In this document: in pieces, positions 33,105-61,783 of the stretch
Numbering within the stretch: the stretch's first letter is position 1
Layout: each line of letters begins with the position of its first letter
Virus record (IMG/VR): IMGVR_UViG_3300045911_000143
Coordinates: 1-64,000 of that record
Strand: one strand, 5' to 3'
Length of the DNA: 64,000 nt
Source: a virus
Position numbers and translations under genes: made by a program
Notes under the pieces: model-generated
The model's database searches: none
Told to the model about the DNA's origin: nothing
Seen by the model: the letters and a program-made list of their open reading frames with translations, nothing else

Positions 33105-33540
33105 GGGTGTTACCAAAAATTTCCTAGGCCGAAAAAATTTTCTGGGAAAAATTTTTTGAGGTTTGAAATTTCAAAAATATTCGAAAAATGGCTGTGGAAA
33201 TATCGGCAAACTTGTTTTTAAGATTCAGGAATGTGGTAATACCGTGATATAATATTGTAAGAGGTTTAACAAAATTTGTAAGGAATATTGTAAGGAATAT
33301 TGTAAGGAATATTGTAAGGAATATTGTAAGGAATATTGTAAGGAATATTGTAAGGAATATTGTAAAAAGGTTTTAACAAAATTTGTAATTTATATTGTTT
33401 TCGGTCGAGCAACCCCCATACCCTCTATTTTATCACGAAAAAAAAGTAAGTCAATATTTTCCCAAACTTGTTTTTTGCTTTTACGATTGTACTACATAGT
33501 ATCCCCTACAGTATAACATAGCGTTATACTGTAGATCAAG
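33105..33540. other. AT-rich non-coding junction
   Basis: About 430 bp without a gene. It contains oligo-A/T tracts (33115-33185), the iteron array, and at 33506-33534 a perfect 12-bp hairpin CTACAGTATAAC with 5-nt loop that would follow the gene at 33543 on the minus strand. Base composition changes here from strongly AT-rich to mixed. Confidence 0.6.
33262..33392. repeat. 12-bp iteron array flanked by direct repeats
   Basis: Seven exact head-to-tail copies of GGAATATTGTAA (33282-33365) with an eighth partial copy (AATATTGTAAG) at about 33251. The array is bracketed by a near-identical 20-bp sequence (GGTTTAACAAAATTTGTAA on the left, GGTTTTAACAAAATTTGTAA on the right). The layout resembles iterons of replication origins or partition sites. 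Confidence 0.85.
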
Positions 33541-33849: not shown

Positions 33850-33892
33850 GCTACTATCTCGTAATCATTCTCATCTTCATGATGGGAAACCC

Positions 33893-33929
33893 TTGACAAT
33901 AGTATTGCATATTGGCATACCGTTGTCAA
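33893..33929 (-). promoter_or_regulatory. Sigma-70 promoter inside a palindrome (copy 1)
   Basis: TTGACA (33929-33924), 17 bp, AATACT (33906-33901). The -35 and the sequence beyond the -10 are arms of an imperfect inverted repeat (TTGACAATAGTAT and its complement with two mismatches). It is the weakest copy of the set of three. Confidence 0.65.
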
Positions 33930-33942
33930 GGGTTATATTACA

Positions 33943-34143
33943 TTAACCGGTGGTCACTGCACTTCCACGGATAAGGCCACCGAAGCCAGCCTTTTCCATC
34001 GCTTCGTTCCACTGGTGCCCGGAGAGTCGCACCACGTGATCCATCTTACCATTGAGGCGAGGCGTGGTGACATTCGGAAGATTGACAAATATGGACTTGC
34101 GGCGACCTTCGACCATGAAGGAAATCAGCGTCAGTTTGTTCAT
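33943..34143 (-). CDS. Small hypothetical protein
   Basis: 66 aa from ATG 34143; a longer open frame upstream is not genic. Basic. GGAGAAAGACA upstream. Own promoter at 34172-34206. Confidence 0.7.
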   Translation of the reverse strand: MNKLTLISFMVEGRRKSIFVNLPNVTTPRLNGKMDHVVRLSGHQWNEAMEKAGFGGLIRGSAVTTG

Positions 34144-34171
34144 TGTCTTTCTCCGGTGAGTGGTGGCGAGT

Positions 34172-34206
34172 GACAACAGTATCGCATATTGGGATACTGT
34201 TGTCAA
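34172..34206 (-). promoter_or_regulatory. Sigma-70 promoter inside a palindrome (copy 2)
   Basis: TTGACA-17-GATACT on the minus strand. GACAACAGTATC (34172-34183) and its exact complement (34193-34204) flank a 9-bp spacer, covering -35 to past the -10. This is the expected shape of a repressor operator. Confidence 0.75.
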
Positions 34207-34211
34207 GGTTC

Positions 34212-34409
34212 TTAGTAATAGTCCTCGGAGTAATAGTCCTCGCGGTAAGGCTTCCTGATGAAGAATCCCATACTGCGGGCACGGTAGATAATCATGCTGG
34301 CCACAACAATCGCCACGGTTGCCGACAGCCACAGCGGGGCAAAGTATGCCACAACCCAAACAGTCAGCACGTCGAGGGACAGCAGAATGGCGGCGGTAAG
34401 GTTGCTCAT
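34212..34409 (-). CDS. Small membrane protein
   Basis: 65 aa from ATG 34409 (GGGAGAAAAAC). Two hydrophobic segments (about 4-22 and 26-40), then a basic/acidic tail ending in a repeated D/E-D-Y-Y. Promoter at 34435-34469. Confidence 0.7.
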   Translation of the reverse strand: MSNLTAAILLSLDVLTVWVVAYFAPLWLSATVAIVVASMIIYRARSMGFFIRKPYREDYYSEDYY

Positions 34410-34434
34410 GTTTTTCTCCCGTCGGTTGACCAGT

Positions 34435-34469
34435 GACAACAGTATCGCATGATGCGTTACTGTTGTCAA
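34435..34469 (-). promoter_or_regulatory. Sigma-70 promoter inside a palindrome (copy 3)
   Basis: TTGACA-17-GATACT. Arms GACAACAGTATC (34435-34446) and GTTACTGTTGTC (34456-34467), one mismatch, 9-bp spacer GCATGATGC that is itself palindromic. Confidence 0.75.
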
Positions 34470-34474
34470 GGGTT

Positions 34475-34684
34475 TTAGTAAGTATCTCGGTTATATACCG
34501 CTTCGTCGAATCTCGCAGATTCAAAGAAACGCCATTCCTGTTCGGCCTTTTCTCCCGTGAAGATTTTCTTGGTGCGAGGATAGTAAAGGATCATGGTGCC
34601 AGCGTTGAAGGGGTTGCCGTAAAAGTCCCGACCAGCATACTTGGCCTTGATCCAGCGGGGGTCATCACGGTAGGAAGTCGCCAT
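34475..34684 (-). CDS. Small hypothetical protein
   Basis: 69 aa, start preceded by GGAGATATGACCA. Own promoter TTGACT-17-TATAAT about 30-60 bp upstream. Charged and aromatic, unknown. Confidence 0.7.
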   Translation of the reverse strand: MATSYRDDPRWIKAKYAGRDFYGNPFNAGTMILYYPRTKKIFTGEKAEQEWRFFESARFDEAVYNRDTY

Positions 34685-34752: not shown

Positions 34753-34781
34753 TTGCATTGTATTCCATTCTATGATAAAAT
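34753..34781 (+). promoter_or_regulatory. Promoter with G-rich start (copy 1)
   Basis: TTGCAT-17-TAAAAT, then GGGATGGTAGGACGGGGATG at the expected start. It points away from the gene on its left and fires into a non-coding region. Confidence 0.65.
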
Positions 34782-34787
34782 GGGATG

Positions 34788-34945
34788 GTAGGACGGGGAT
34801 GGTGACAATATCCCCCTGTACCACACTTCCACTCCAATCTCCAAGATTGGAGAATCGCAGTCTGCAACACTGGAGGACAATGTTGCAGACTGTAGATTCT
34901 GAATCAGGCACTCGGGGCTGTCAACCCCTGTTCCCTTTCCTTCAT
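34788..34945 (+). ncRNA. Candidate structured small RNA
   Basis: Downstream of the copy-1 promoter, four hairpins in a row: GGGGAT/ATCCCC, CCAATCT/AGATTGG (34834-34850), an 18-bp stem with one bulge built on CAGTCTGCAACA (34858-34869 with 34881-34892), and GGGG/CCCC. The minus-strand 62-aa open frame across it looks incidental. The RNA would run antisense into the end of the next minus gene. Confidence 0.5.
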
Positions 34946-36323: not shown

Positions 36324-36417
36324 AATTTTTTCCTCTTGGACGAATATTATACCACATGATATGGCAGTAGTAAAGTCAAATATTTTGTGCAGTGGAGTAC
36401 CTCCGTCCGACCATCCC

Positions 36418-36446
36418 ATTTTATCATATAATGGAATAGAATGCAA
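36418..36446 (-). promoter_or_regulatory. Promoter with G-rich start (copy 2)
   Basis: TTGCAT-17-TAAAAT then GGGATGGTCGGACGGAGG, located between a tRNA terminator and the next gene's promoter, same direction as that gene. Confidence 0.65.
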
Positions 36447-36448
36447 GA

Positions 36449-36471
36449 AAAAGGCGGTAGAAACCGCCCTT
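36449..36471 (-). terminator. Intrinsic terminator after tRNA
   Basis: GGCGGT-TTCT-ACCGCC followed by TTTTT on the minus strand. Confidence 0.85.
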
Positions 36472-36650: not shown

Positions 36651-36674
36651 TGGATTCAATCTTGAGTTAAGGGA

Positions 36675-36808
36675 ATGGTGGCGGAAACGTATTAGCGCCT
36701 TATTGATTCTCTTAGCCGGTCATCGACCAAAGGTTTCCGGCGCTAATCGGAAATCCTTTGCTGACCCATCCTAGCCATCCGCCTCAAGTGCGTTAGCAGG
36801 ACCACCAT
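36675..36808 (-). ncRNA. Two-copy structured small RNA, copy A
   Basis: The first 41 nt (36808-36768) are identical to copy B at 41467-41427. The 5' end ATGGTGG pairs with CCACCAT at the 3' end; inside, ATTAGCGCC pairs with GGCGCTAAT (9 bp) around a GGTC/GACC hairpin. The promoter places the start at the first base of the conserved block. The block also reads as a start codon and a short peptide (MVVLLTHLRRMAR...), so it may be a leaderless leader peptide, an RNA, or both. Confidence 0.65.
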
Positions 36809-36815
36809 ATGAAGC

Positions 36816-36844
36816 ATTATACTACCATTGGATCAGGATTGCAA
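36816..36844 (-). promoter_or_regulatory. Sigma-70 promoter of small RNA copy A
   Basis: TTGCAA-17-TATAAT, with 7 bp to the first base of the conserved RNA block. Confidence 0.75.
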
Positions 36845-36861
36845 GGACTTTACTATCTGGA

Positions 36862-37086
36862 TTAGTAATCGTCCCCGAAGTATCCATAATCTTCATCGGT
36901 TCCCATCCCAGCAGATGCCAGCGCCCAGCCGTCATCGGAATCATCGCAGTCGATTTCAGGCTCCTCATCAGGGTCTTCATAGGCCAGCATGGGATCGAAA
37001 ACTTCCCGGCAATCCATGCAAGTCCAATTGTCATCGTGCGTTTCCTGAGTGTTGAGGGAACCGCAGGCGGGGCAATGATAGTTCAT
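36862..37086 (-). CDS. Small zinc-ribbon, acidic protein
   Basis: 74 aa from ATG 37086 (GGAGAACCCCAA). C-P-A-C (about 5-8) and C-M-D-C (about 24-27) form a zinc ribbon; the rest is strongly Asp/Glu-rich. Could mimic DNA or bind RNA polymerase (inference). Promoter TTGCAC-17-TATAAT. Confidence 0.75.
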   Translation of the reverse strand: MNYHCPACGSLNTQETHDDNWTCMDCREVFDPMLAYEDPDEEPEIDCDDSDDGWALASAGMGTDEDYGYFGDDY

Positions 37087-37188
37087 TTGGGGTTCTCCGG
37101 TTGAGGAAAACATTATACTATGTTTGGTTGCAGGGTGCAAGCGATTACCTTGCTTTCCACCCTGCGCCTTCCACGAAAAGCGATTATC

Positions 37189-37392
37189 TTACTGATGCGA
37201 GATTTTTGCAATTCGCATCAAGTAGTTAGCCGCGTTGATGATGTATTCTTCATTCGTGATTGCGCGCTGCCAATACCATTGCTGGCGGGCCACGTATTCC
37301 CCCTTTCTTTCGTAAGGCATACGCTTTTCCCTTGCCTTCTCCCGATAGTGAAGAATACGCTTGGCGAAAACTTCGAGGATTTCAGGATTCAT
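37189..37392 (-). CDS. Small basic hypothetical protein
   Basis: 67 aa, helical, Arg/Glu-rich. Starts 4 bp after the preceding gene's stop, so it is coupled to it. Confidence 0.7.
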   Translation of the reverse strand: MNPEILEVFAKRILHYREKAREKRMPYERKGEYVARQQWYWQRAITNEEYIINAANYLMRIAKISHQ

Positions 37393-37396
37393 AGTA

Positions 37397-37624
37397 TCAT
37401 GCCTTATACTTTTTCACCAGTCCAGCCAAATTTTCTTCTGCCCCTTCAAGGCTTGTACGTTGCGAGCATGGCCGCCATTTGGTCTTAAAAGTGGGGCAAA
37501 TGGCGGTATCAAAATTGTTGTAACAGAATGTTTCCAGCACAATATGCGAATCATCCTCAAGCCGGACGATTGCATATTTCTTTTCTGCGCTGACCGTTAC
37601 AACCCTGATCGCTTGCACTAACAT
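37397..37624 (-). CDS. Hypothetical protein
   Basis: 75 aa; AGGAG sits too close to ATG 37624, and GTG 37618 has better spacing. Predicted beta barrel then helical tail. Unknown. Confidence 0.65.
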   Translation of the reverse strand: MLVQAIRVVTVSAEKKYAIVRLEDDSHIVLETFCYNNFDTAICPTFKTKWRPCSQRTSLEGAEENLAGLVKKYKA

Positions 37625-37652
37625 TCTCCTGATCGATTATGCTGCTATTGTA

Positions 37653-37865
37653 TCAGCCTTCCGCCCCAAGTTCAGCATAGGCAAGACTGATCGCAGCCGA
37701 ATCTGATTCGGTGTAAAAAAGTTCCGGCCACGACTTGTCGGGGTTGCCGTGGCGGTTCCAAATGAATTGGCCCAACCGCAGATGGGTGCCCTTGCGCGCA
37801 CCAACCTTGAAATACTCGTTAATCGTGGCGCTGAGGGTTTCGATGTTGCAGTTCAGGCGATCCAT
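37653..37865 (-). CDS. Small hypothetical protein
   Basis: 70 aa, AGGGAGAACACT site. Promoter TTGACT-16-TATAAT directly upstream. Unknown. Confidence 0.7.
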   Translation of the reverse strand: MDRLNCNIETLSATINEYFKVGARKGTHLRLGQFIWNRHGNPDKSWPELFYTESDSAAISLAYAELGAEG

Positions 37866-37931
37866 AGTGTTCTCCCTTGATATGGATTGTATTATATCAC
37901 AAAATGGATACCAGTCAACCCCCTTGATAGA

Positions 37932-37966
37932 AAAAGGGCCGCCAGTTTTTTGGCGGCCCTTTTTTG
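37932..37966 (-). terminator. Bidirectional intrinsic terminator
   Basis: AAAAAGGGCCGCCA and its near-complement with A and T runs on both sides, directly after the AT-hook gene stop. Confidence 0.9.
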
Positions 37967-38206
37967 TCAGATCAGCCCTTCCCTTTTGGCCTTACTCACA
38001 TATACCGCCGCGCTGGATTTCTTAATCCCAGACGCCACGACAGCATCCACGCGAGCCTTGTTCTCCGCATCGGCGGGGAGGGCCTTCAGAATCGCAACTG
38101 CGCGGTCATATGCGGTTTCGGCCAACTTGGGCCGTCCACGGCCACGCTTGGCTTGGATCACAGGGGCAGTGTTCTCGGGGTTTGTGACTTCGGTGTTATC
38201 ATTCAT
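37967..38206 (-). CDS. AT-hook DNA-binding protein (short paralogue)
   Basis: 79 aa. K-R-G-R-G-R-P-K (about 20-27) is an AT-hook that grips the minor groove. It is followed by L-A-E-T-A-Y-D-R-A-V and I-K-K-S-S-A-A-V-Y. The region is almost identical, also at DNA level, to the C-terminus of the protein at 46333-46950. Promoter TTGAAA-17-TATAAT. Probable nucleoid or transcription modulator. Confidence 0.8.
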   Translation of the reverse strand: MNDNTEVTNPENTAPVIQAKRGRGRPKLAETAYDRAVAILKALPADAENKARVDAVVASGIKKSSAAVYVSKAKREGLI

Positions 38207-38364
38207 GTTTCAGTTCCTATTTTGGTGGTGGAGGCTGTATTATACAACGATTAGATTAGACTTTCAAGCACCCCGTTGACGCATTCCAGTGACCGGGGTG
38301 GTGCAGGACCATTTGTTTTCAAGTGAGACTTACTATAGCACGCATCTTCTATCAAATACAAGTA

Positions 38365-38393
38365 TTGTAATGTAAGATATTTCGTGCTAAAAT
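38365..38393 (+). promoter_or_regulatory. Promoter with G-rich start (copy 3)
   Basis: TTGTAA-17-TAAAAT with TG extension, then GGGATGGTGGACGGGGATGG; about 35 nt later comes a strong hairpin. Confidence 0.65.
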
Positions 38394-38426
38394 GGGATGG
38401 TGGACGGGGATGGTATAAAAGAGAAA

Positions 38427-38454
38427 AAGGCGGGTGCCCTAGGACACCCGCCTT
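38427..38454 (-). terminator. Terminator of the ArdC-like gene
   Basis: AAGGCGGGTG/CACCCGCCTT perfect 10-bp stem, TTTTTCTCTTTT on the minus side. It may also stop the plus-strand RNA from copy 3. Confidence 0.85.
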
Positions 38455-38535
38455 GTCTTGTCACCAGCCACCACGGCTGGTTTCTCGCTTCGCCCTCTCA
38501 AGGTGTAACTATTATCTCACAAATGGGGGAGGGTG

Positions 38536-39402
38536 TCAACCCTCCCCTTCCCCCGCGTCAGGCTTGCGGTTCAGGATGTAGTCTGCCGCCTTTTGCGCCC
38601 TTGCCGCTGCGGTGGCGAACAAATGCGGATCGCTTCGCAGCGCGCGGGACCATCCGTCAAGGTACGCCGCAGTATTCTCAATCACCTTGGGGGCAATCCC
38701 GGCTTCGGCACTCAGGAAACATGCTGCCAGTTCCGCCACAAGTTCCTCGCGGCTGTATTCGTGGGAACCGAAATAGGAAGGCTGATCGATTTCTTTTCGG
38801 TTCAAGCGAGACTTGTGGCCGGTGCTATGGGCAAGTTCATGGAACAGAGTAGCATAGAAACTTTCCGCAGAATCGAAAGTCTCACGATGCGGTATATTGA
38901 TTTTGTCAATCGTTGGGATGTAACATGCACGCTCCCCGCCGTAGCGGATTTCGGGGCGGTTCGGCATACCATTGACAATGGCCTCACATGCGTCCAGAAC
39001 CGGGACAGCCTCGCGGGCCTCATGGGGCGGAAGTTCGATCCCGTCAACTTGCGCAATGTTGTAAACGAGGAAAAATCTGAAAATGGGGAAGGTTGATTCC
39101 TCGCCACTTTCATCGGTACGCTTCACCCAGTTCCAAAAATAGACCGGAGTATGCGCCTTTTCCTCGCCAGCCTTGATTGTTCCCCCGGCAGCCTTGATCT
39201 GATTGTAGGTCAGCCAGACCGATTCGGGATAACCCTTCATGACTTGTACCATGTTAAGCATGAAGGTGTTGATTCCCCGGTAGGTCCGTCCGCTGATGTT
39301 ACGCGGGGGGTCCGATGCCTTCCACGGCTTCAACCACGGGGCCGTACCATTTTCGATCATCTTAAGAATCTGATCGGTCAGAATCTGATAGACTTTCGAC
39401 AT
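38536..39402 (-). CDS. ArdC-like antirestriction protein with zincin domain
   Basis: 288 aa from ATG 39402 (CGGAGACGACGCT). N-terminal ssDNA-binding ArdC domain (I-E-x-G-T-A-P-W-L-K-P-W, Y-R-G-I-N-x-F) followed by a zinc metallopeptidase motif H-E-L-A-H-S-T-G-H and a conserved E-L-V-A-E-L. ArdC proteins of plasmids protect entering DNA from restriction enzymes. Promoter TTGACA-17-GATAAT just upstream. Fits an early defence-evasion role. Confidence 0.9.
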   Translation of the reverse strand: MSKVYQILTDQILKMIENGTAPWLKPWKASDPPRNISGRTYRGINTFMLNMVQVMKGYPESVWLTYNQIKAAGGTIKAGEEKAHTPVYFWNWVKRTDESGEESTFPIFRFFLVYNIAQVDGIELPPHEAREAVPVLDACEAIVNGMPNRPEIRYGGERACYIPTIDKINIPHRETFDSAESFYATLFHELAHSTGHKSRLNRKEIDQPSYFGSHEYSREELVAELAACFLSAEAGIAPKVIENTAAYLDGWSRALRSDPHLFATAAARAQKAADYILNRKPDAGEGEG

Positions 39403-39492
39403 AGCGTCGTCTCCGTTGATGGTGAAATCATTATCCGATATTAGCCTTTGGTTGTCAAGTGTCAATCGGCTATTTTTTGATCGTTTAAAGGC

Positions 39493-39520
39493 TTGACTAT
39501 CAGATTGGATGATGTATAAT
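39493..39520 (+). promoter_or_regulatory. Plus-strand sigma-70 promoter
   Basis: TTGACT-16-TATAAT, 7 bp before ATG 39528; divergent from the ArdC-like gene. Confidence 0.75.
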
Positions 39521-39527
39521 GCTTTAC

Positions 39528-39632
39528 ATGGTTAGGGCGGTAACGACAGCCCCGATCACAGCCCCGAAACGGGAACTTTGGCAACCTAGATTAATTGAGG
39601 GTAGGATGGTTTACCCCCGCGACGGCCCGTAA
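39528..39632 (+). CDS. Leaderless 34-aa protein or small RNA
   Basis: ATG 39528 to TAA 39632 encodes a Pro/Arg-rich 34-aa peptide (starts MVRAVTTAPITAP). The ATG is 7 bp from the -10. The transcript ends at the terminator at 39663-39698, about 170 nt in all, so it could be a noncoding RNA instead. One of very few plus-strand units in this region. Confidence 0.5.
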   Translation: MVRAVTTAPITAPKRELWQPRLIEGRMVYPRDGP

Positions 39633-39662
39633 GAAAAATTGATGGTTGTAAACCAAACGAGC

Positions 39663-39698
39663 AAAAAATCCAGACCAAAGTTATGGTCTGGATTTTTT
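39663..39698. terminator. Bidirectional intrinsic terminator
   Basis: AAAAAATCCAGACC / GGTCTGGATTTTTT, 14-bp stem. It serves the plus-strand unit at 39528 and the short minus RNA from copy 4. Confidence 0.9.
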
Positions 39699-39726
39699 AA
39701 TTTACAGCATCCCGTCCGACCATCCC

Positions 39727-39755
39727 ATTTTATCATATAATGGAATAGAATGCAA
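39727..39755 (-). promoter_or_regulatory. Promoter with G-rich start (copy 4)
   Basis: TTGCAT-17-TAAAAT then GGGATGGTCGGACGGGATG. With the terminator at 39663-39698 it would give an RNA of only about 60 nt and no coding content. Confidence 0.7.
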
Positions 39756-39756
39756 C

Positions 39757-39784
39757 AAAAAAGGGAGGCTTTTGCCTCCCTTTT
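39757..39784 (-). terminator. Intrinsic terminator
   Basis: AAGGGAGGC-AAAA-GCCTCCCTT with TTTT, after the 39-aa gene. Confidence 0.9.
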
Positions 39785-39791
39785 GAGTTTG

Positions 39792-39911
39792 TTAGAATCC
39801 TTCCCCGTAAACGAACGCATCCTGATCCGCTGCACGCTCGGCGGCCAACCGATCCAGCCATTCGTGGTAGGCAATGTCGGATTCTAACATTTCAAGTTCT
39901 TCGTCGTTCAT
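39792..39911 (-). CDS. Small acidic protein
   Basis: 39 aa (starts MNDEELEMLESD), acidic, ATG 39911. Promoter TTGACT with TATAAT about 20-50 bp upstream, own terminator. Too short for standard calling but well framed by signals. Confidence 0.65.
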   Translation of the reverse strand: MNDEELEMLESDIAYHEWLDRLAAERAADQDAFVYGEGF

Positions 39912-39959
39912 GGCTTCCTCCAGTTGGTGAAATCATTATATTACATCAACGCAGTTGAG

Positions 39960-40346
39960 TCAAGCGAAAACTTCGGAAATTTTCTGACGCCATTTTAGTT
40001 TTGCAGATTCTTTCACGAAAGCAATTTGCGTGCCGGACACCCCCATTTTCCAACACTCAACACCATCGTTATTTGCAGGGCCGAGATTGTAACAGGAAAC
40101 CAAGAAACCGGCTTCATGAAGGTGAAGGTCTAAGTATAGGGGGAACCACTGGCGCAGTTTTCTGACTGAAGGTGCGCCATAATACACTGTTCCGGGGTGT
40201 TGTCCCTTTAGTTTGTGGATGCCATCATTATATGGTGATGGATAACTTTCCCCAATGATTTCTCGGATAAGATCAGCCTGTCCGTCCCATTCATCGCAAC
40301 GGAATGGTCCCAAACCTTTCTCGTTTTCAACTCTATAGGCCAGCAT
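39960..40346 (-). CDS. Hypothetical protein, leaderless
   Basis: 128 aa. Promoter TTGAGA-17-TATGAT (40353-40381) ends 6 bp from the ATG and there is no ribosome-binding site. Contains several Trp and Tyr, unknown fold. Confidence 0.7.
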   Translation of the reverse strand: MLAYRVENEKGLGPFRCDEWDGQADLIREIIGESYPSPYNDGIHKLKGQHPGTVYYGAPSVRKLRQWFPLYLDLHLHEAGFLVSCYNLGPANNDGVECWKMGVSGTQIAFVKESAKLKWRQKISEVFA

Positions 40347-40384
40347 TGTAGTATCATACCATATATTATTTTATTTCTCAAGTG

Positions 40385-40413
40385 TTGTATTCTATTCCAT
40401 TCTATGATAAAAT
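40385..40413 (+). promoter_or_regulatory. Promoter with G-rich start (copy 5)
   Basis: TTGTAT-17-TAAAAT then GGGATGGTCGGACGGGG. The RNA would run antisense into the 3' end of the next minus gene. Confidence 0.65.
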
Positions 40414-40465
40414 GGGATGGTCGGACGGGGTTGGTAATAAGTGATTAAAACCTCCCTATATCTTT

Positions 40466-40738
40466 TCACGTTGGGTATTCCAAACGATGCTTTTTCAGTG
40501 CATCGGCACGATCCCATGCACGATAATAACACTCGACCTCACCATCCGCATCATAGACGCAATAGAGGGGGATATAAGAACCCCAATAGGTACCGCTCGG
40601 ATCATATCCGCCACGATCCAATCGAACCTTGCGGCAGTAGAGTTTGGCCGAACGATTGGCGTTGTAGTTGCGCCGACCCAAGGGAGCGCCACGAGAGCAG
40701 TTGACGGGGTTGGCTTTCAGACGTGCGTTAATGTCCAT
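40466..40738 (-). CDS. Conserved hypothetical protein, leaderless
   Basis: 90 aa from ATG 40738. G-A-P-L-G-R-R, C-R-K-V-R-L-D-R-G-G-Y-D-x-x-G-x-Y-W-G and L-Y-C-V-Y-D form a motif set I recall from phage and plasmid proteins of unknown role. TAGAAT is 7 bp from the ATG (-35 TTGATT); no ribosome-binding site. Confidence 0.75.
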   Translation of the reverse strand: MDINARLKANPVNCSRGAPLGRRNYNANRSAKLYCRKVRLDRGGYDPSGTYWGSYIPLYCVYDADGEVECYYRAWDRADALKKHRLEYPT

Positions 40739-40776
40739 GACCATCATTCTACACTGATTGGAATAGAAATCAAGTC

Positions 40777-40805
40777 TTGTAATGTAATTGATTTCGTGCT
40801 AAAAT
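40777..40805 (+). promoter_or_regulatory. Promoter with G-rich start (copy 6) and hairpin
   Basis: TTGTAA-17-TAAAAT then GGGATGGTGGTCGGTG; a perfect 8-bp hairpin GAAGTGAG/CTCACTTC follows at 40833-40852, just beyond the convergent gene's stop. Confidence 0.65.
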
Positions 40806-40861
40806 GGGATGGTGGTCGGTGATAGTGGTGAAGAAGTGAGTTGCCTCACTTCGGTCATACT

Positions 40862-41242
40862 CTAGTCGAGGAAAGAATACAAGGCTTCAACATTCAGCGA
40901 GCGATCATTATAGGCTGCCTCCCTCATCGCATAGAATCGCTCGCTCAATTCTTCGGTACATTTCTCAACATACTTCCACAGGGAAACATTGTAAAGCAAC
41001 AGGGTTAGGGCAACCCCGAAGGTGCGGTGATTCATCGTACCTTCATAGTAGTTGTTATCATTTACCACATTGTAAAGGCCCTCCGGGGCGATGACAAAAT
41101 CAAAGCCGCCGATGTTCTCGACAGTCCATTGACCGCCAGTGTAATCCTCAGAATGGTTCCGCGCAAGATTATACAGGCCATTCTCAGCCACGTGCGGGGG
41201 AAGTAGCGGAAAGATGCGAGCAAGATCATTCCAATTCATTGC
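40862..41242 (-). CDS. Hypothetical protein
   Basis: 126 aa from ATG 41242 (GAAAGAAAGAAA region). Promoter TTGACA-17-TATAAT between 41250 and 41300. Unknown function. Confidence 0.7.
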   Translation of the reverse strand, partial: AMNWNDLARIFPLLPPHVAENGLYNLARNHSEDYTGGQWTVENIGGFDFVIAPEGLYNVVNDNNYYEGTMNHRTFGVALTLLLYNVSLWKYVEKCTEELSERFYAMREAAYNDRSLNVEALYSFLD

Positions 41243-41355
41243 CATCAGATTTCTTTCTTTCAGTGTTGGGGTATTATATTCCATTATAGGATGGTTGTCA
41301 AGCGTTTTGGTTAGTCAACCCGCAAACATCCCTTGTCCAGTTCACTTAGGTTGGT

Positions 41356-41467
41356 TGGTGGCGTGGTCTAATCGACATTAACCCTCTTGTTGACACTACG
41401 CAGTCGATATTCGCGTTATACGTCTTATCCTAGCCATCCGCCTCAAGTGCGTTAGCAGGACCACCAT
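41356..41467 (-). ncRNA. Two-copy structured small RNA, copy B
   Basis: 41-nt identity with copy A from the first base. Terminal helix TGGTGG/CCACCA and GTGGTC/GACCAC alternatives, internal helix ATCGAC/GTCGAT in the place of copy A's 9-bp stem. Sequence between the helices differs while pairing is kept, which supports RNA structure. The short frame reads MVVLLTHLRRMAR then diverges. Confidence 0.65.
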
Positions 41468-41474
41468 GCAAAAC

Positions 41475-41502
41475 ATTATACAGTGTTTTCTTCCGTTGTC
41501 AA
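41475..41502 (-). promoter_or_regulatory. Sigma-70 promoter of small RNA copy B
   Basis: TTGACA-16-TATAAT, 7 bp before the conserved block. Confidence 0.8.
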
Positions 41503-42134: not shown

Positions 42135-42153
42135 CTGGATGACCTATTAAGTC

Positions 42154-42183
42154 CTAACGCATACGTTAGTAGGGTCCAGTATA
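42154..42183 (-). promoter_or_regulatory. Promoter plus 5' hairpin element (copy 1)
   Basis: -10 TATACT (42183-42178), conserved upstream CCACAACTA, then an RNA beginning near GGACC and folding CTAACG-TATG-CGTTAG (42169-42154) with AGGAC directly after the stem. Confidence 0.65.
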
Positions 42184-42256
42184 CACTAGTTGTGGGAAAA
42201 TTAAAAGCTTACAGTTTAACAAAGTGATAGTCAGTTTTTCGACCTTCTTTGTCCTG

Positions 42257-46950: not shown

Positions 46951-47036
46951 TTGCTTTCCTTTGTTAGTGCCGGGACCATCCCCGACCATGTGAAGCATTA
47001 TACACCGTTTCAGTTGAATTGCAATATCCCGATGTG

Positions 47037-48839: not shown

Positions 48840-49200
48840 ATAAAGATTGGCTTCTAGTTGTAAATTCACAAGAATATTATTTTGAAGAGTGTAGCCGATT
48901 TGTTATCTTATAATCCTACACCGTCTTTCACTCTTTCTAATAATCAATCTTAGTACCTATCAATTGTATGATTGTAATAATTCTAAATGACAGGTTTCAA
49001 CAATTCATTTAATGATGCAAAGACAGTGGTCTCTGATACGTAAATTAGATTGATTTCAGTGAAATTATTAGTTTTCTGATATAAGTATTATCTTTTAAAG
49101 ATAGAATTTGAAATATACCAGCCACATTTAAATAACATGTGGTGGGTAATACCCACTAAATCCTAACGCATACGTTAGTAGTGTCCAGTATACTTTAGCT
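48840..49200. other. Non-coding stretch
   Basis: No open frame of note. On the minus strand, after the promoter at 49187-49192, the hairpins GTGGGTA/TACCCAC and CCACAT/ATGTGG occur within 50 nt, so a structured RNA may be made. GTGTAG/CTACAC pairs lie near 48885-48925. Confidence 0.45.
49163..49192 (-). promoter_or_regulatory. Promoter plus 5' hairpin element (copy 2)
   Basis: Same block as 42154-42183: CCACAGCTA, TATACT, then CTAACG-TATG-CGTTAG. No gene follows within 250 bp. Confidence 0.65.
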
Positions 49201-49209
49201 GTGGGTTTA

Positions 49210-50857: not shown

Positions 50858-51103
50858 TTATTTCTCGCAATAAAAATCACCAATATTTAGATCATTCCAT
50901 ATTTCTTTTTCAACATGATAATATTTTTCACGTATTCTAACCTGATACGTACTATCACCGTCAAATTCACCGTGATACTTTTTTTGTATCATACCACACG
51001 GAAGATCAGATTGGAATGCTTCGTTTATTAAAGCCCCTAAAATAAGACAGATAGCCATAACTCCTATGGCTATCTGTCCACTCGTTTTGCTATTTTTATC
51101 CAT
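50858..51103 (-). CDS. Membrane-anchored small protein
   Basis: 81 aa, hydrophobic segment about 9-28, then a soluble domain. Starts inside the last codons of the RNA ligase gene. Confidence 0.65.
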   Translation of the reverse strand: MDKNSKTSGQIAIGVMAICLILGALINEAFQSDLPCGMIQKKYHGEFDGDSTYQVRIREKYYHVEKEIWNDLNIGDFYCEK

Positions 51104-52091
51104 TCAATGCAGCATCCTGAACCGCTTTGATGAAGTATGCACGGGCTTTGGTGGAAACGTAACTATTAACCTGCTTCCATTCATAACCATTGGCTGCAAT
51201 CTCTTCCGTACATTCTTTCAAAATGTCCTTATGAATCCATTTAATATACTCACCAGTGAATTTGGAATTCACTTCCATCCCATTTTCCTTCAGGTAAGAG
51301 ATGCCCTGCTCCAGCCTCCATTCAGGCAAGATGTTATCAACCAGATTATTGATACCCTCAACAATGGTTGGGTCAACGGTAATTTTCTTACCTTCCTTAT
51401 TCGGTTTCTTATGCTTCAGCCCCTTTGTCTTGAACCAAAGTGAGGTATCTTGGGCCAGTGTATTGATGACTGGCATCCAGACAATTCCCTCACCAGTGCC
51501 AACCACACCATGCAACTTACCCCAAGGACATTCCGTTTCGACCATATTGGTCAGTTTTTCAATGTCATTGAGAACATCGGTGTTGTCAGCATTTTCCGAA
51601 AAATCAAGCGTAATACCAAAAATTGGAGCCTCCGCCACCCAACGGAACGGCGAATTATCATACGCTCCCGGAAAGAAAAACTTTCCGTCAAAATGAATCA
51701 TAAAACAAACGAAATGCTTTTCCAATTCAGAAACAGCAACTCCCTTCTGGATTCCCTTACCAATCCATTCACCATAGAATCGCACGACACCGTTGTTAAA
51801 ATACTTCTTAGCAAATTCAAGAATGGCCTGACTATTGGCAGCAACCCAAAAGGCAAACCCGTAATTATCAGATTCGACGGTAAGCGGACGCTCACGAGAG
51901 AACGCTTCAACTTCACCCGTTTCAGTATTCACGGCAATAGAGCCGTTGGTACCATGCAACTTGACCGAGCCAATATAATCTACAGTCCTGATAAACTTCT
52001 CAGGCTGATTGTTACCAAGGCACCAGTTATTGTGCTTGTGAACATGCTTGAAAACGTGATGAATAGAATCAATCGAAGGGAACTTCAACAT
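51096..52091 (-). CDS. RNA ligase, Rnl2 family
   Basis: 331 aa, close to T4 Rnl2 (334). Nucleotidyl-lysine K44 in S-V-K-L-H-G-T-N, F-Y-G-E-W-I-G-K-G, G-E-G-I-V-W and closing W-F-K-T-K-G carry motifs I, III, IV and V. Seals nicks in double-stranded RNA with ATP. Promoter TTGACA-18-TATAAT. Confidence 0.93.
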   Translation of the reverse strand: MLKFPSIDSIHHVFKHVHKHNNWCLGNNQPEKFIRTVDYIGSVKLHGTNGSIAVNTETGEVEAFSRERPLTVESDNYGFAFWVAANSQAILEFAKKYFNNGVVRFYGEWIGKGIQKGVAVSELEKHFVCFMIHFDGKFFFPGAYDNSPFRWVAEAPIFGITLDFSENADNTDVLNDIEKLTNMVETECPWGKLHGVVGTGEGIVWMPVINTLAQDTSLWFKTKGLKHKKPNKEGKKITVDPTIVEGINNLVDNILPEWRLEQGISYLKENGMEVNSKFTGEYIKWIHKDILKECTEEIAANGYEWKQVNSYVSTKARAYFIKAVQDAALNG

Positions 52092-53123: not shown

Positions 53124-53204
53124 AATAACAATTATGCCTCCCTCTGTCAATAGAGGTCAAATTTGTAAATGTCGAGACTTATTTATTTACTATATAAGGT
53201 TAAT

Positions 53205-53299
53205 GTTCACTGGTGGGACTCGAACCCACATCGGAAGACTTTGTTCTCCCATGACATAACCTAAACTAAGGTTATCGCTTACCTTTTGCTACAGTGAAC
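53205..53299 (-). tRNA. Non-canonical tRNA-like RNA with long variable arm
   Basis: Acceptor-like helix TTCACTG/CAGTGAA (extendable to 9 bp), T-arm GTGGG-TTCGAGT-CCCAC, long variable arm GGGAGA/TCTTCC, and an anticodon stem ATAACC/GGTTAT whose loop is 8 nt (TTAGTTTA). No CCA encoded. Isotype cannot be set. May be a tRNA with expanded loop, a decayed tRNA, or a tRNA-like regulator. Confidence 0.5.
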
Positions 53300-54353: not shown

Positions 54354-55481
54354 TTATTCTCCAAATTCTACGGGATCATCCTTGATCCCGTAGTCTTTAT
54401 AATGCTTAATCATGAATTCCTTAAGGTTGACTTCCTTACCAACATAAAGATTCATTGCCAAACCAAAAATTCCATCCTTCGACAATTCCTGTTGACCAAG
54501 GATAGCATAAGACTTGCGATCAAGTCCACGATTAGCATCATAGAATTCATACAAAGTCTTATGGAGATGATTATAAATCTTTGCAACCTTCTCCTCCATT
54601 TCATTAATTTGCGAGATTGCAACAACATCACCATGCAACATGCCGCGAAGATCATCGGCACCTTCATTCACGCAAGCCTCAAACAAGCGACGTGGCGAGG
54701 AAATGCTATCCTTAGTTTTATGCAGCGAGCAATACTTATCAGTCTTGACCTTCACCCACTTACCGTCACGGAACTTAAAGATAAAACCTTCAATATTATC
54801 CTGTGATTCGTATACGGACTTTACGAAGGTTTCAACATCAGCCGGGATAGGCAGTGAATCAACCCAATACTTTTGCAAGATGGTAGTCTGCTCCAGCGGG
54901 ATGTATTCGCCAGTTGCATTGTCCCGCACGTTCAGAACAACAAGCGAAGGCTTTTCATACCCAATAACAATTCGATTGTCTGGTGAAACATATTCCATAT
55001 TGACAGTCCAATTGTTTTGGACACAATTGATAATTCCAAAAAGCAAGTCTTCAAATTCCTCAGTGTGCAAAAGCGACTCCGCAGCCTTAGCCTGCTCAGA
55101 ATGAAAAGAACCCTTGGTCTTAAGGCAAAAACTACCACCATCGCCTAGAATCACTGTAGAAACCAGCGAGCCATCCATCTTATTTTGAATTTCGACTACG
55201 TTGGAAAAATCCAACGACATGACATACGGATTTTCACCGTTGTTGAAAAACTTCTGCATAGGAAGCGATGCAAGTTCTACCGGCTCGCCGTCAACCATAC
55301 GGAAGGTGTGTCCACGGCACTCCATAGCGTTAGGGAGCATGAAGTCAGTATAGGATGCCAGTCGGTACAGGAAGATGCGGAACGAGGCTCCTAGAGCTTC
55401 CTGATCGACGTAATAAAACGCCTCCGAGGATGCACAGAGAGTCATCAAATCATTATAGAGGGTGCGCTGGAAGTCGTTCAT
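54354..55481 (-). CDS. rnlA: RNA ligase 1 (T4 RnlA-like)
   Basis: 375 aa, T4 Rnl1 is 374. Lysine K101 in N-K-M-D-G-S-L matches T4 K99; M-E-Y-V-S-P, E-G-F-I-F-K-F and K-W-V-K-V-K-T-D-K-Y supply motifs III to V. In T4 it re-joins tRNA cut by the host PrrC nuclease. With Rnl2 and the tRNA genes it forms an RNA-repair set; no polynucleotide kinase is in this window. Confidence 0.95.
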   Translation of the reverse strand: MNDFQRTLYNDLMTLCASSEAFYYVDQEALGASFRIFLYRLASYTDFMLPNAMECRGHTFRMVDGEPVELASLPMQKFFNNGENPYVMSLDFSNVVEIQNKMDGSLVSTVILGDGGSFCLKTKGSFHSEQAKAAESLLHTEEFEDLLFGIINCVQNNWTVNMEYVSPDNRIVIGYEKPSLVVLNVRDNATGEYIPLEQTTILQKYWVDSLPIPADVETFVKSVYESQDNIEGFIFKFRDGKWVKVKTDKYCSLHKTKDSISSPRRLFEACVNEGADDLRGMLHGDVVAISQINEMEEKVAKIYNHLHKTLYEFYDANRGLDRKSYAILGQQELSKDGIFGLAMNLYVGKEVNLKEFMIKHYKDYGIKDDPVEFGE

Positions 55482-55757: not shown

Positions 55758-56207
55758 TCAAAAATCTGATCCTGCTGTGGCCATGCTGTTTTTGTAACTT
55801 TGCACGACACCGACGTTTTCAAAATGGTAAGAACGCTTGATTGAAAGGTGGATTTCCTGAGAGGAATTCAGTGCGGTAACATACAAGTCACGATATTCTT
55901 GTTTAGGTGTATTGAAAGCGTCCTCAAACGCGGTAGGATGATAAAAGATAGTCAAATCACCATAATCCAAATTCAATTGAATATTGGAAATTGATTCCAT
56001 GCTGATAGTAATGGGGGGAATAGCTTCATCGTTCTGATCCTTACCGAGTAAGATTAGACTGTTGGTTTTATCTACGGCAAAGTGGAAATCAGACCACAAA
56101 CCCTGAATATTATTCCAAGTCACACAGTATATGCCGTTGGTGTCTGAAATCTTTTTCAGGGTTTCAGCAATATGCTGCTTTTCAGTAATTTTAACAATAT
56201 CGGTCAT
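55758..56207 (-). CDS. Hypothetical protein
   Basis: 149 aa. Its start codon sits 8 nt after a CTAACG/CGTTAG hairpin whose 3' side contains the AGGA ribosome-binding site, so translation may be gated. Unknown fold. Confidence 0.7.
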   Translation of the reverse strand: MTDIVKITEKQHIAETLKKISDTNGIYCVTWNNIQGLWSDFHFAVDKTNSLILLGKDQNDEAIPPITISMESISNIQLNLDYGDLTIFYHPTAFEDAFNTPKQEYRDLYVTALNSSQEIHLSIKRSYHFENVGVVQSYKNSMATAGSDF

Positions 56208-56215
56208 ATTAAGTC

Positions 56216-56245
56216 CTAACGCATACGTTAGAAGGGTCTAGTATA
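56216..56245 (-). promoter_or_regulatory. Promoter plus 5' hairpin element (copy 3)
   Basis: CCACAACTA, TATACT (56245-56240), then CTAACG-TATG-CGTTAG overlapping AGGAC. Third copy of the element at 42154 and 49163. Confidence 0.7.
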
Positions 56246-56259
56246 CTCTAGTTGTGGAG

Positions 56260-60897: not shown

Positions 60898-61039
60898 GGA
60901 CAGTCCCCATTTTGATTGAGAGAAATGTAAGCCTGAGATTAAGACTTAACGCAGCAACCTTTCCGGTCATTATCCCACACTTGCAGGTGTAGGTTCTACC
61001 GTTATCCACGCACTCGTGTGCGTATTTGCCATACCTGCT
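60898..61039 (-). other. Region between GNAT-like gene and large RNA
   Basis: An open frame at 60815-61042 (C-K-C-G, start ATG 61042) covers it but lacks a ribosome-binding site and overlaps the GNAT-like gene. It may be a small zinc protein or part of the RNA's 3' region. Confidence 0.35.
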
Positions 61040-61783
61040 CATTTATTTAAAGCGCGCGAGCTTATTGCGCTTGTCACCAATGACACTACTCATGGTTCTG
61101 TCTACCGCTTGCCTTGCGGGCAATAAGAGGACGCTAATCCCCTACGTGCGACTTTCCCACAACAATCTATCACCTTGCGAGTTCTAGACTGGCTTGATTC
61201 AGTTGCCTGTCAAGCATTAAGGTACTTTTCATCATTGGCCGGTGACAACTTTGCTATGTACTTATATACCATTCAAAGTTTTAATACCGCCTGAACTTGC
61301 GTGCCACCGTTGCTTCATAACCTTTTGGGCTACAAAATACAACACAAGTTCGTATCCGTTCATTGGCATTACTAGGATTGTCATTTTCGATCAAGCTGTT
61401 AACTTGACCTATTGACTGGATTACGCACTTGCCTGCCAAGACTCGCACTAAAATCCTACACCTTAGATAGTAAACTATGAAAGTTGCATCTACTAGAGGT
61501 TTGCTGCCTCAACAATTTCAGTTTTACCCTCAATTGCTTTCGTAGCATTCAGTCGTTTACCCCCTCACCCAACTCGGTAAGTGGATACCCCCTCTTTTGG
61601 AGAGGAATACATCCGGTGCTTTCTTGAATAGACCATATTGCTATGGCGAACGGGTTGGCGACCCATCCTTTATGCATATCACTATGCACTATCCTTGCAC
61701 TTAAAGAGTTGCCCCTTTAAGTGTGTCAAGCCAGACCTTTCGGTTTCGTTCCTTTATGGTGGAACTCATCAGTGGCTACCGTT
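61040..61783 (-). ncRNA. Large structured noncoding RNA (GOLLD/ROOL-like candidate)
   Basis: About 740 nt without a credible gene on either strand, driven by a strong promoter. Many perfect helices: CACTTAAAG/CTTTAAGTG, TGCATA/TATGCA, CCATA-GCAA-TATGG, CCTCT/AGAGG, GAACTTG/CAAGTTC, TTGCC/GGCAA inside CTTATTG/CAATAAG (61071-61127). It ends in AGCGC/GCGCT followed by TTTAAATAAAT. Size, structure density, promoter and tRNA neighbours match the phage-borne ornate RNA classes GOLLD and ROOL, but I cannot align it to either. Function unknown. Confidence 0.65.

Follow-up and report, generated by a model that had tools for sequence, protein, structure and literature searches.

The put RNA of phage HK022 lies within a few nucleotides of the start of the PL transcript, adopts a bulged two-stem structure and occurs in two similar copies per phage (PMC9378689). 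It binds the beta' zinc-binding domain of RNA polymerase and suppresses termination in cis. The Racr RNA anti-CRISPRs are small phage RNAs which have their own strong promoters, are located among anti-defence genes and copy a CRISPR repeat (PMC10651486). Phage-encoded regulatory sRNAs are short phage transcripts for which a role in altering host or phage expression has been proposed (review PMC12197685). Finally, GOLLD RNA (RF02032) is a large structured phage RNA of about 420 nt. In this study, we describe a pair of putative small RNAs that shares some traits with each of these.

The window, i.e. the whole 64,000-nt stretch of DNA analysed, corresponds to bases 1-64000 of a virus record of 78,354 bases, the remainder of which was read as well. 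In protein comparisons, its proteins were found to be ~25-61% identical to those of Xanthomonas phage XacN1 and Stenotrophomonas phage RAS14, which places the virus, as judged from its proteins, as a jumbo phage distantly related to XacN1. The first 30 kb of the record correspond to the unique part of XacN1. Most of the conserved genes at ~47-73 kb, downstream of an anti-restriction neighbourhood, map to the XacN1 66-kb terminal repeat; this repeat includes tRNA genes, and a role in host takeover is presumed for it. Near 34 kb, the G+C content steps up from 36% to ~49%. At this sharp step, a 12-bp tandem repeat (TAAGGAATATTG, 33255-33386) is followed by three inverted-repeat elements (TGACAACAGTATCGCAT...TACTGTTGTCA, 33887-34481), which together possibly constitute a genome-end or replication element. 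Further along the record, two RNA ligase genes are found on the minus strand, at 51096-52091 and 54354-55481 (phrog_548 and phrog_562). Phage RNA ligases are often linked with tRNA repair. Between them, ARAGORN called a tRNA with an unreadable two-base anticodon, adjoining tRNA-Met (53204-53299, minus). The Rfam scan detected a GOLLD RNA at 60930-61352 (minus, 189.5 bits).

Two minus-strand stretches were found to be exactly identical over 41 nt (ATGGTGGTCCTGCTAACGCACTTGAGGCGGATGGCTAGGAT) from the predicted +1 onwards. Both sit in an early, anti-restriction, tRNA-rich region, in which 71 promoter-like sites were observed around the two copies vs 29 expected. A preliminary description of this DNA had reported the identity from the start of the two copies, their coordinates and near-consensus promoters 7 nt before the block. 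All of this was borne out, and the strand, which had been left unstated, is the minus strand. The promoters are sigma-70-like and match the consensus at 10/12 positions in copy 1 (TTGCAA-17-TATAAT) and at 12/12 in copy 2 (TTGACA-16-TATAAT). The features of the locus, with predicted helices named P1 to P4, are as follows.

38536-39402, minus: ArdC-like anti-restriction gene, the name being a reading of 'anti-restriction protein' families
40862-41284, minus: ArdB-like anti-restriction gene, named in the same way
36839-36844, minus: copy 1, -35 element TTGCAA
36816-36821, minus: copy 1, -10 element TATAAT, 17-nt spacer, 7 nt before +1
36675-36808 (36808 to 36675), minus: copy 1 RNA, from +1 to the end of P1
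36768-36808, minus: copy 1 invariant block, 41 nt (P1 5' arm, nt 1-6, and complete P2, nt 7-41)
36729-36759, minus: copy 1 hairpin P3, AAAGGaUUUCC[GAUUAGCGCC]GGAAACCUUU, loop being the P4 5' strand
36691-36699, minus: copy 1 P4 3' strand (GGCGCUAAU)
36676-36683, minus: copy 1 CGCCACCA, P1 3' arm
36661-36666, minus: CUCAAG of copy 1, tentative second pseudoknot with the complementary P2 loop
36488-36562, minus: atypical cloverleaf resembling tRNA-Thr(UGU), with ACCA as its end, predicted to lie on the copy 1 transcript
36446-36468, minus: intrinsic terminator, GGCGGTTTCTACCGCC then TTTTTCTT, recognised by eye and absent from the terminator scan listing
41497-41502, minus: copy 2, -35 element TTGACA
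41475-41480, minus: copy 2, -10 element TATAAT, 16-nt spacer, 7 nt before +1
41356-41467 (41467 to 41356), minus: copy 2 RNA, from +1 to the end of P1
41427-41467, minus: copy 2 invariant block, 41 nt (P1 5' arm and P2)
41398-41416, minus: copy 2 hairpin P3, ACGCG[AAUAUCGAC]UGCGU, loop being the P4 5' strand
41371-41376, minus: copy 2 P4 3' strand (GUCGAU)
41356-41363, minus: copy 2 CGCCACCA, P1 3' arm
41343-41348, minus: UAAGUG of copy 2, tentative second pseudoknot with the complementary P2 loop

With regard to the invariant block, nt 7-41 form hairpin P2, GUCCU GCUA a CGC[ACUUGAG]GCG ga UGGC u AGGAU, with the stems GUCCU/AGGAU, GCUA/UGGC and CGC/GCG, the loop ACUUGAG and the closing pair G7-U41. 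Folded alone, P2 reaches -13.2 kcal/mol (z -2.4), a value matched by 3 of 200 shuffles. Both copies carry CGCCACCA at their far 3' end, and the CCACCA common to the two 3' ends pairs with the 5' arm UGGUG(G) to form P1; folding thus upheld the terminal helix proposed earlier. As the block consists of the 5' arm of P1 and the complete P2, and as the identity between the copies stops exactly at the closing pair of P2, its extent is not arbitrary.

The identity itself, while far beyond chance, is not the only exact duplication in the record. A separate and unrelated 44-nt promoter module is exactly duplicated nearby, at 36403 and 39712, so that exact identity alone does not imply strong constraint. 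The two copies could be a duplicated promoter and leader module with no RNA-specific role, spread by recombination like other short modules, the 41-nt identity being merely recent. The promoter/start TATAATGCTTYAYATGGT, which recurs at 36821, 39515 and 47002 ahead of unrelated downstream sequences, and the ordinary folding energies of the whole RNAs are in line with this explanation. However, identity that halts just where a complete hairpin closes, CGCCACCA at both far ends, and a pseudoknot that recurs with no sequence similarity (see below) speak against it, and we consider it unlikely.

Other repeated modules were observed in the region. A promoter-like module, TAAAATGGGATGGT.GGACGGGGATGGT, is present at 34753-34808, 36403-36452, 38365-38420, 39712-39761, 40385-40440 and 40777-40832. 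Its counterpart in related phages is TAAAATGGGTGCGTGGTCGGGA, with TTCAG direct repeats upstream, and in XacN1 it is TAAAATGGATGGCAGGCCGGGA, present in many copies; it has the look of a phage promoter or intergenic element common to the whole family. On the minus strand, three promoter-leader segments of 51 nt that are nearly identical (42145-42195, 49154-49204 and 56207-56257) carry the hairpin CTAACG-TATG-CGTTAG, and two of the three are located just upstream of small genes.

Between the block and CGCCACCA, the copies are unalignable, their alignment score being equalled by 241 of 2000 shuffles. Nevertheless, in both copies the loop of hairpin P3 is complementary to the strand just upstream of the P1 3' arm, with different sequences in each. 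The internal long helix reported previously exists in copy 1 (GAUUAGCGCC with GGCGCUAAUAC), but in copy 2 it shrinks to 6 bp (AUCGAC with GUCGAU); its strands are better modelled, in either copy, as part of a pseudoknot, in which a hairpin loop would hold the 5' strand. The modelled geometry is that of a classical H-type pseudoknot, with a first loop of 3 nt and 0 nt between the stems, and we infer that P3 and P4 form one in each copy. When the variable parts were dinucleotide-shuffled, a pseudoknot obeying the same rule arose in 110/2000 cases (5.5%) for copy 1 and in 35/2000 (1.75%) for copy 2, which gives a joint chance of about 0.001 under a search rule written after the sequences had been seen. 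The evidence of compensatory type is limited to these two paralogues, whose P3/P4 pairs differ. The folding energy of the whole RNA is not significant for either copy (z -1.6 for copy 1 and z -0.5 for copy 2).

A second pseudoknot, in which the P2 loop would pair with CUCAAG or UAAGUG, is tentatively proposed. These 6-nt segments lie 7-9 nt behind CGCCACCA in each copy, and the chance of such a partner per copy is about 2.7% when windows of 16 nt are considered and 6% for windows of 30 nt.

The predicted copy 1 transcript continues past the RNA into a 28-codon hydrophobic frame, which by inspection has no clear ribosome-binding site, and then into the tRNA-Thr-like cloverleaf. The latter comprises a 7-bp acceptor stem, a UGU anticodon loop and non-canonical D- and T-loops, with CGCAAGT as T-loop; it was reported neither by ARAGORN nor by the Rfam tRNA model, and no comparable cloverleaf was obtained in 60 shuffles of the 15-kb region. 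A few more tRNA-like cloverleaves with odd T-loops were seen in related phages. Behind copy 2, the next promoter (41301-41273, 12/12) serves the following gene, with no gene in between. With this 12/12 promoter in front of the gene behind copy 2, and with a terminator closing the predicted copy 1 transcript ahead of the next gene, neither copy has the appearance of a usual mRNA leader. No terminator was found directly behind P1 in either copy; a discrete 3' end would therefore need processing.

These transcription units bear on a cis-acting alternative, in which P1/P2 would fold as it leaves the polymerase, as HK022 putL and putR do, and make the enzyme ignore pauses and terminators, the sequence beyond being free to diverge. 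The two copies stand exactly at the 5' ends of two predicted early transcripts, as put stands near the PL start, and copy 1 precedes an intrinsic terminator that could be suppressed. On the other hand, the constant part is one hairpin and one arm, as against the two bulged stems, about 70 nt long, of put, no clear terminator stands between copy 2 and the next promoter, and the recurring pseudoknot is left unexplained. Moreover, as nearly every gene of the region has its own near-consensus promoter, read-through is not needed there. We regard this alternative as unlikely.

The block also encodes MVVLLTHLRRMAR, as had been stated, in a frame that stays open for 21 and 23 codons in the two copies. 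The preliminary description had suggested a leaderless leader peptide, in which the AUG at +1 would be translated to give MVVLLTHLRRMAR followed by a copy-specific basic tail. In each copy, the AUG indeed coincides with the predicted start or lies no more than 2 nt from it, and the same AUGGU start is found at 39515 (plus, with a 34-codon frame, by eye) and at 47002 (minus, in frame with a gene). However, the 13 codons common to both frames have identical wobble positions throughout, with no synonymous change, the peptides diverge immediately past the block into unrelated tails, frames of 21-23 codons are not unusual, and no attenuator-like structure was found downstream of the frame in either copy. 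A leaderless peptide is thus a weak possibility that we do not favour and deem improbable.

A further small RNA is probable on the plus strand at 39527-39705, where an 11/12 promoter (39493-39520), an AUGGU start and a strong intrinsic terminator were found (z -3.1). The model built from the two copies gives no match to it, and it was rejected as a third member.

In agreement with the earlier statement that no known class could be recognised, Rfam 15 returned no family at either copy with gathering or permissive thresholds. No homologue of the RNA was retrieved by blastn against phages and plasmids, and exact, gapped and partial-block pattern scans of IMG/VR, as well as pattern scans of 84,980 prokaryote genomes, yielded chance or coding matches only. 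Kin were collected by protein guidance (XacN1, RAS14/CM1 and about 20 IMG/VR records), and the block is absent from the DNA of all those scanned, including XacN1, RAS14 and IMG/VR kin, with about 25 related jumbo-phage records covered. A covariance-model search, as the preliminary description had advised, found 0 relatives in 2.0 Mb of kin and 19 further records. Given that no homologue was found in these collections, which may omit records very near the window's own, the fold is backed by two paralogues only. One candidate adjoining ArdC (IMGVR 3300005683_000019, 57161, minus) was subjected to folding and rejected, being a weak promoter together with a gene terminator. Among the matches listed, promoter-proximal repeated blocks in kin were mostly promoter/leader motifs, coding repeats and terminal repeats.

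Two-copy structured small RNAs of no known class, as originally put forward, and made from sigma-70 promoters, represent the best reading of the sequence. As for their function, our best single reading, which we hold tentatively, is that they are paralogous early trans-acting small RNAs that make up an orphan family, each combining a constant hairpin for binding with a variable body. Its starting points, namely the identity, the predicted promoters, the P1/P2 foldings, a coding potential of at most 21-23 codons and the anti-restriction neighbourhood, are read from the DNA itself. It is consistent with an exact block that ends at the P2 closing pair, with CGCCACCA closing P1 at both 3' ends, with P3 loops that pair upstream of the P1 3' arm through different sequences, with sigma-70-like promoters exactly 7 nt upstream of RNAs that do not resemble ordinary mRNA leaders, and with the ArdC-like and ArdB-like genes nearby and the conserved downstream genes that map to the XacN1 terminal repeat. 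Against it stand the fold resting on two paralogues with no homologue in the collections searched, the ordinary whole-RNA energies, a pseudoknot found post hoc, the lack of a terminator right behind P1 and of an antisense target in the record, and the short exact duplications of plain promoter modules in the same region.

We infer that both copies are transcribed and act in trans, and what lies past the promoter, the block and P1/P2 is likewise proposed conditionally. Host sigma-70 RNA polymerase would begin each transcript with the block's first base. Folding would then produce the closing helix P1, the constant hairpin P2 stacked on it, and the copy-specific hairpin-type pseudoknot P3/P4. 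As the first bases are paired in P1, the 5' end should be protected. The variable pseudoknotted body may stabilise or tune each RNA, whereas the constant P2 would offer a common contact site for one partner. That partner might conjecturally be a protein or an RNA of the host, perhaps a component of its defence. Early in infection, the RNAs would most likely serve in trans as a decoy or scaffold, and their purpose, itself a conjecture, would most likely be to aid the virus in the first minutes of infection. A bolder version, which we find rather doubtful, is that they represent a new class of phage early RNA, in which a constant 5' hairpin is joined to a pseudoknotted body that can be exchanged. 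They would act in trans, as an RNA factor for counter-defence or host takeover, and one of the two would share its transcript with a tRNA-like decoy devoid of the usual elbow sequences of tRNA.

Jumbo phages have few known functional early RNAs, and a constant-plus-variable RNA pair in an anti-restriction region would be a concrete candidate, open to testing, for host takeover or counter-defence based on RNA. It would also serve as a warning that lineage-specific phage RNAs escape family libraries.

Compared with the systems described above, the pair resembles the phage-encoded regulatory sRNAs as a set of short predicted phage transcripts, but has no antisense target within the record. GOLLD is likewise a structured phage RNA and occurs in the same record, but differs in size, sequence and fold, and the Rfam models do not match the copies. 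The Racrs share the small size, the strong promoters and the anti-defence setting; they copy a CRISPR repeat, however, whereas the block core is unmatched in the 84,980 prokaryote genomes, the gapped core pattern giving 0 matches and a looser pattern three chance-like ones, with patterns that need exact core letters and would thus miss a diverged repeat. The put RNA of HK022 is similar in layout: each phage has two copies, located at the 5' ends of early sigma-70 transcripts or close to them, which are promoter predictions here, and the stems are bulged. Yet put comprises about 70 nt in two adjacent bulged stem-loops, its copies resemble each other from end to end, and it acts in cis; in our pair only P2 and the P1 arms are constant, the rest is a variable putative pseudoknot, and there is no sequence match. 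The analogy with put therefore appears to be one of arrangement and position, and not of membership.
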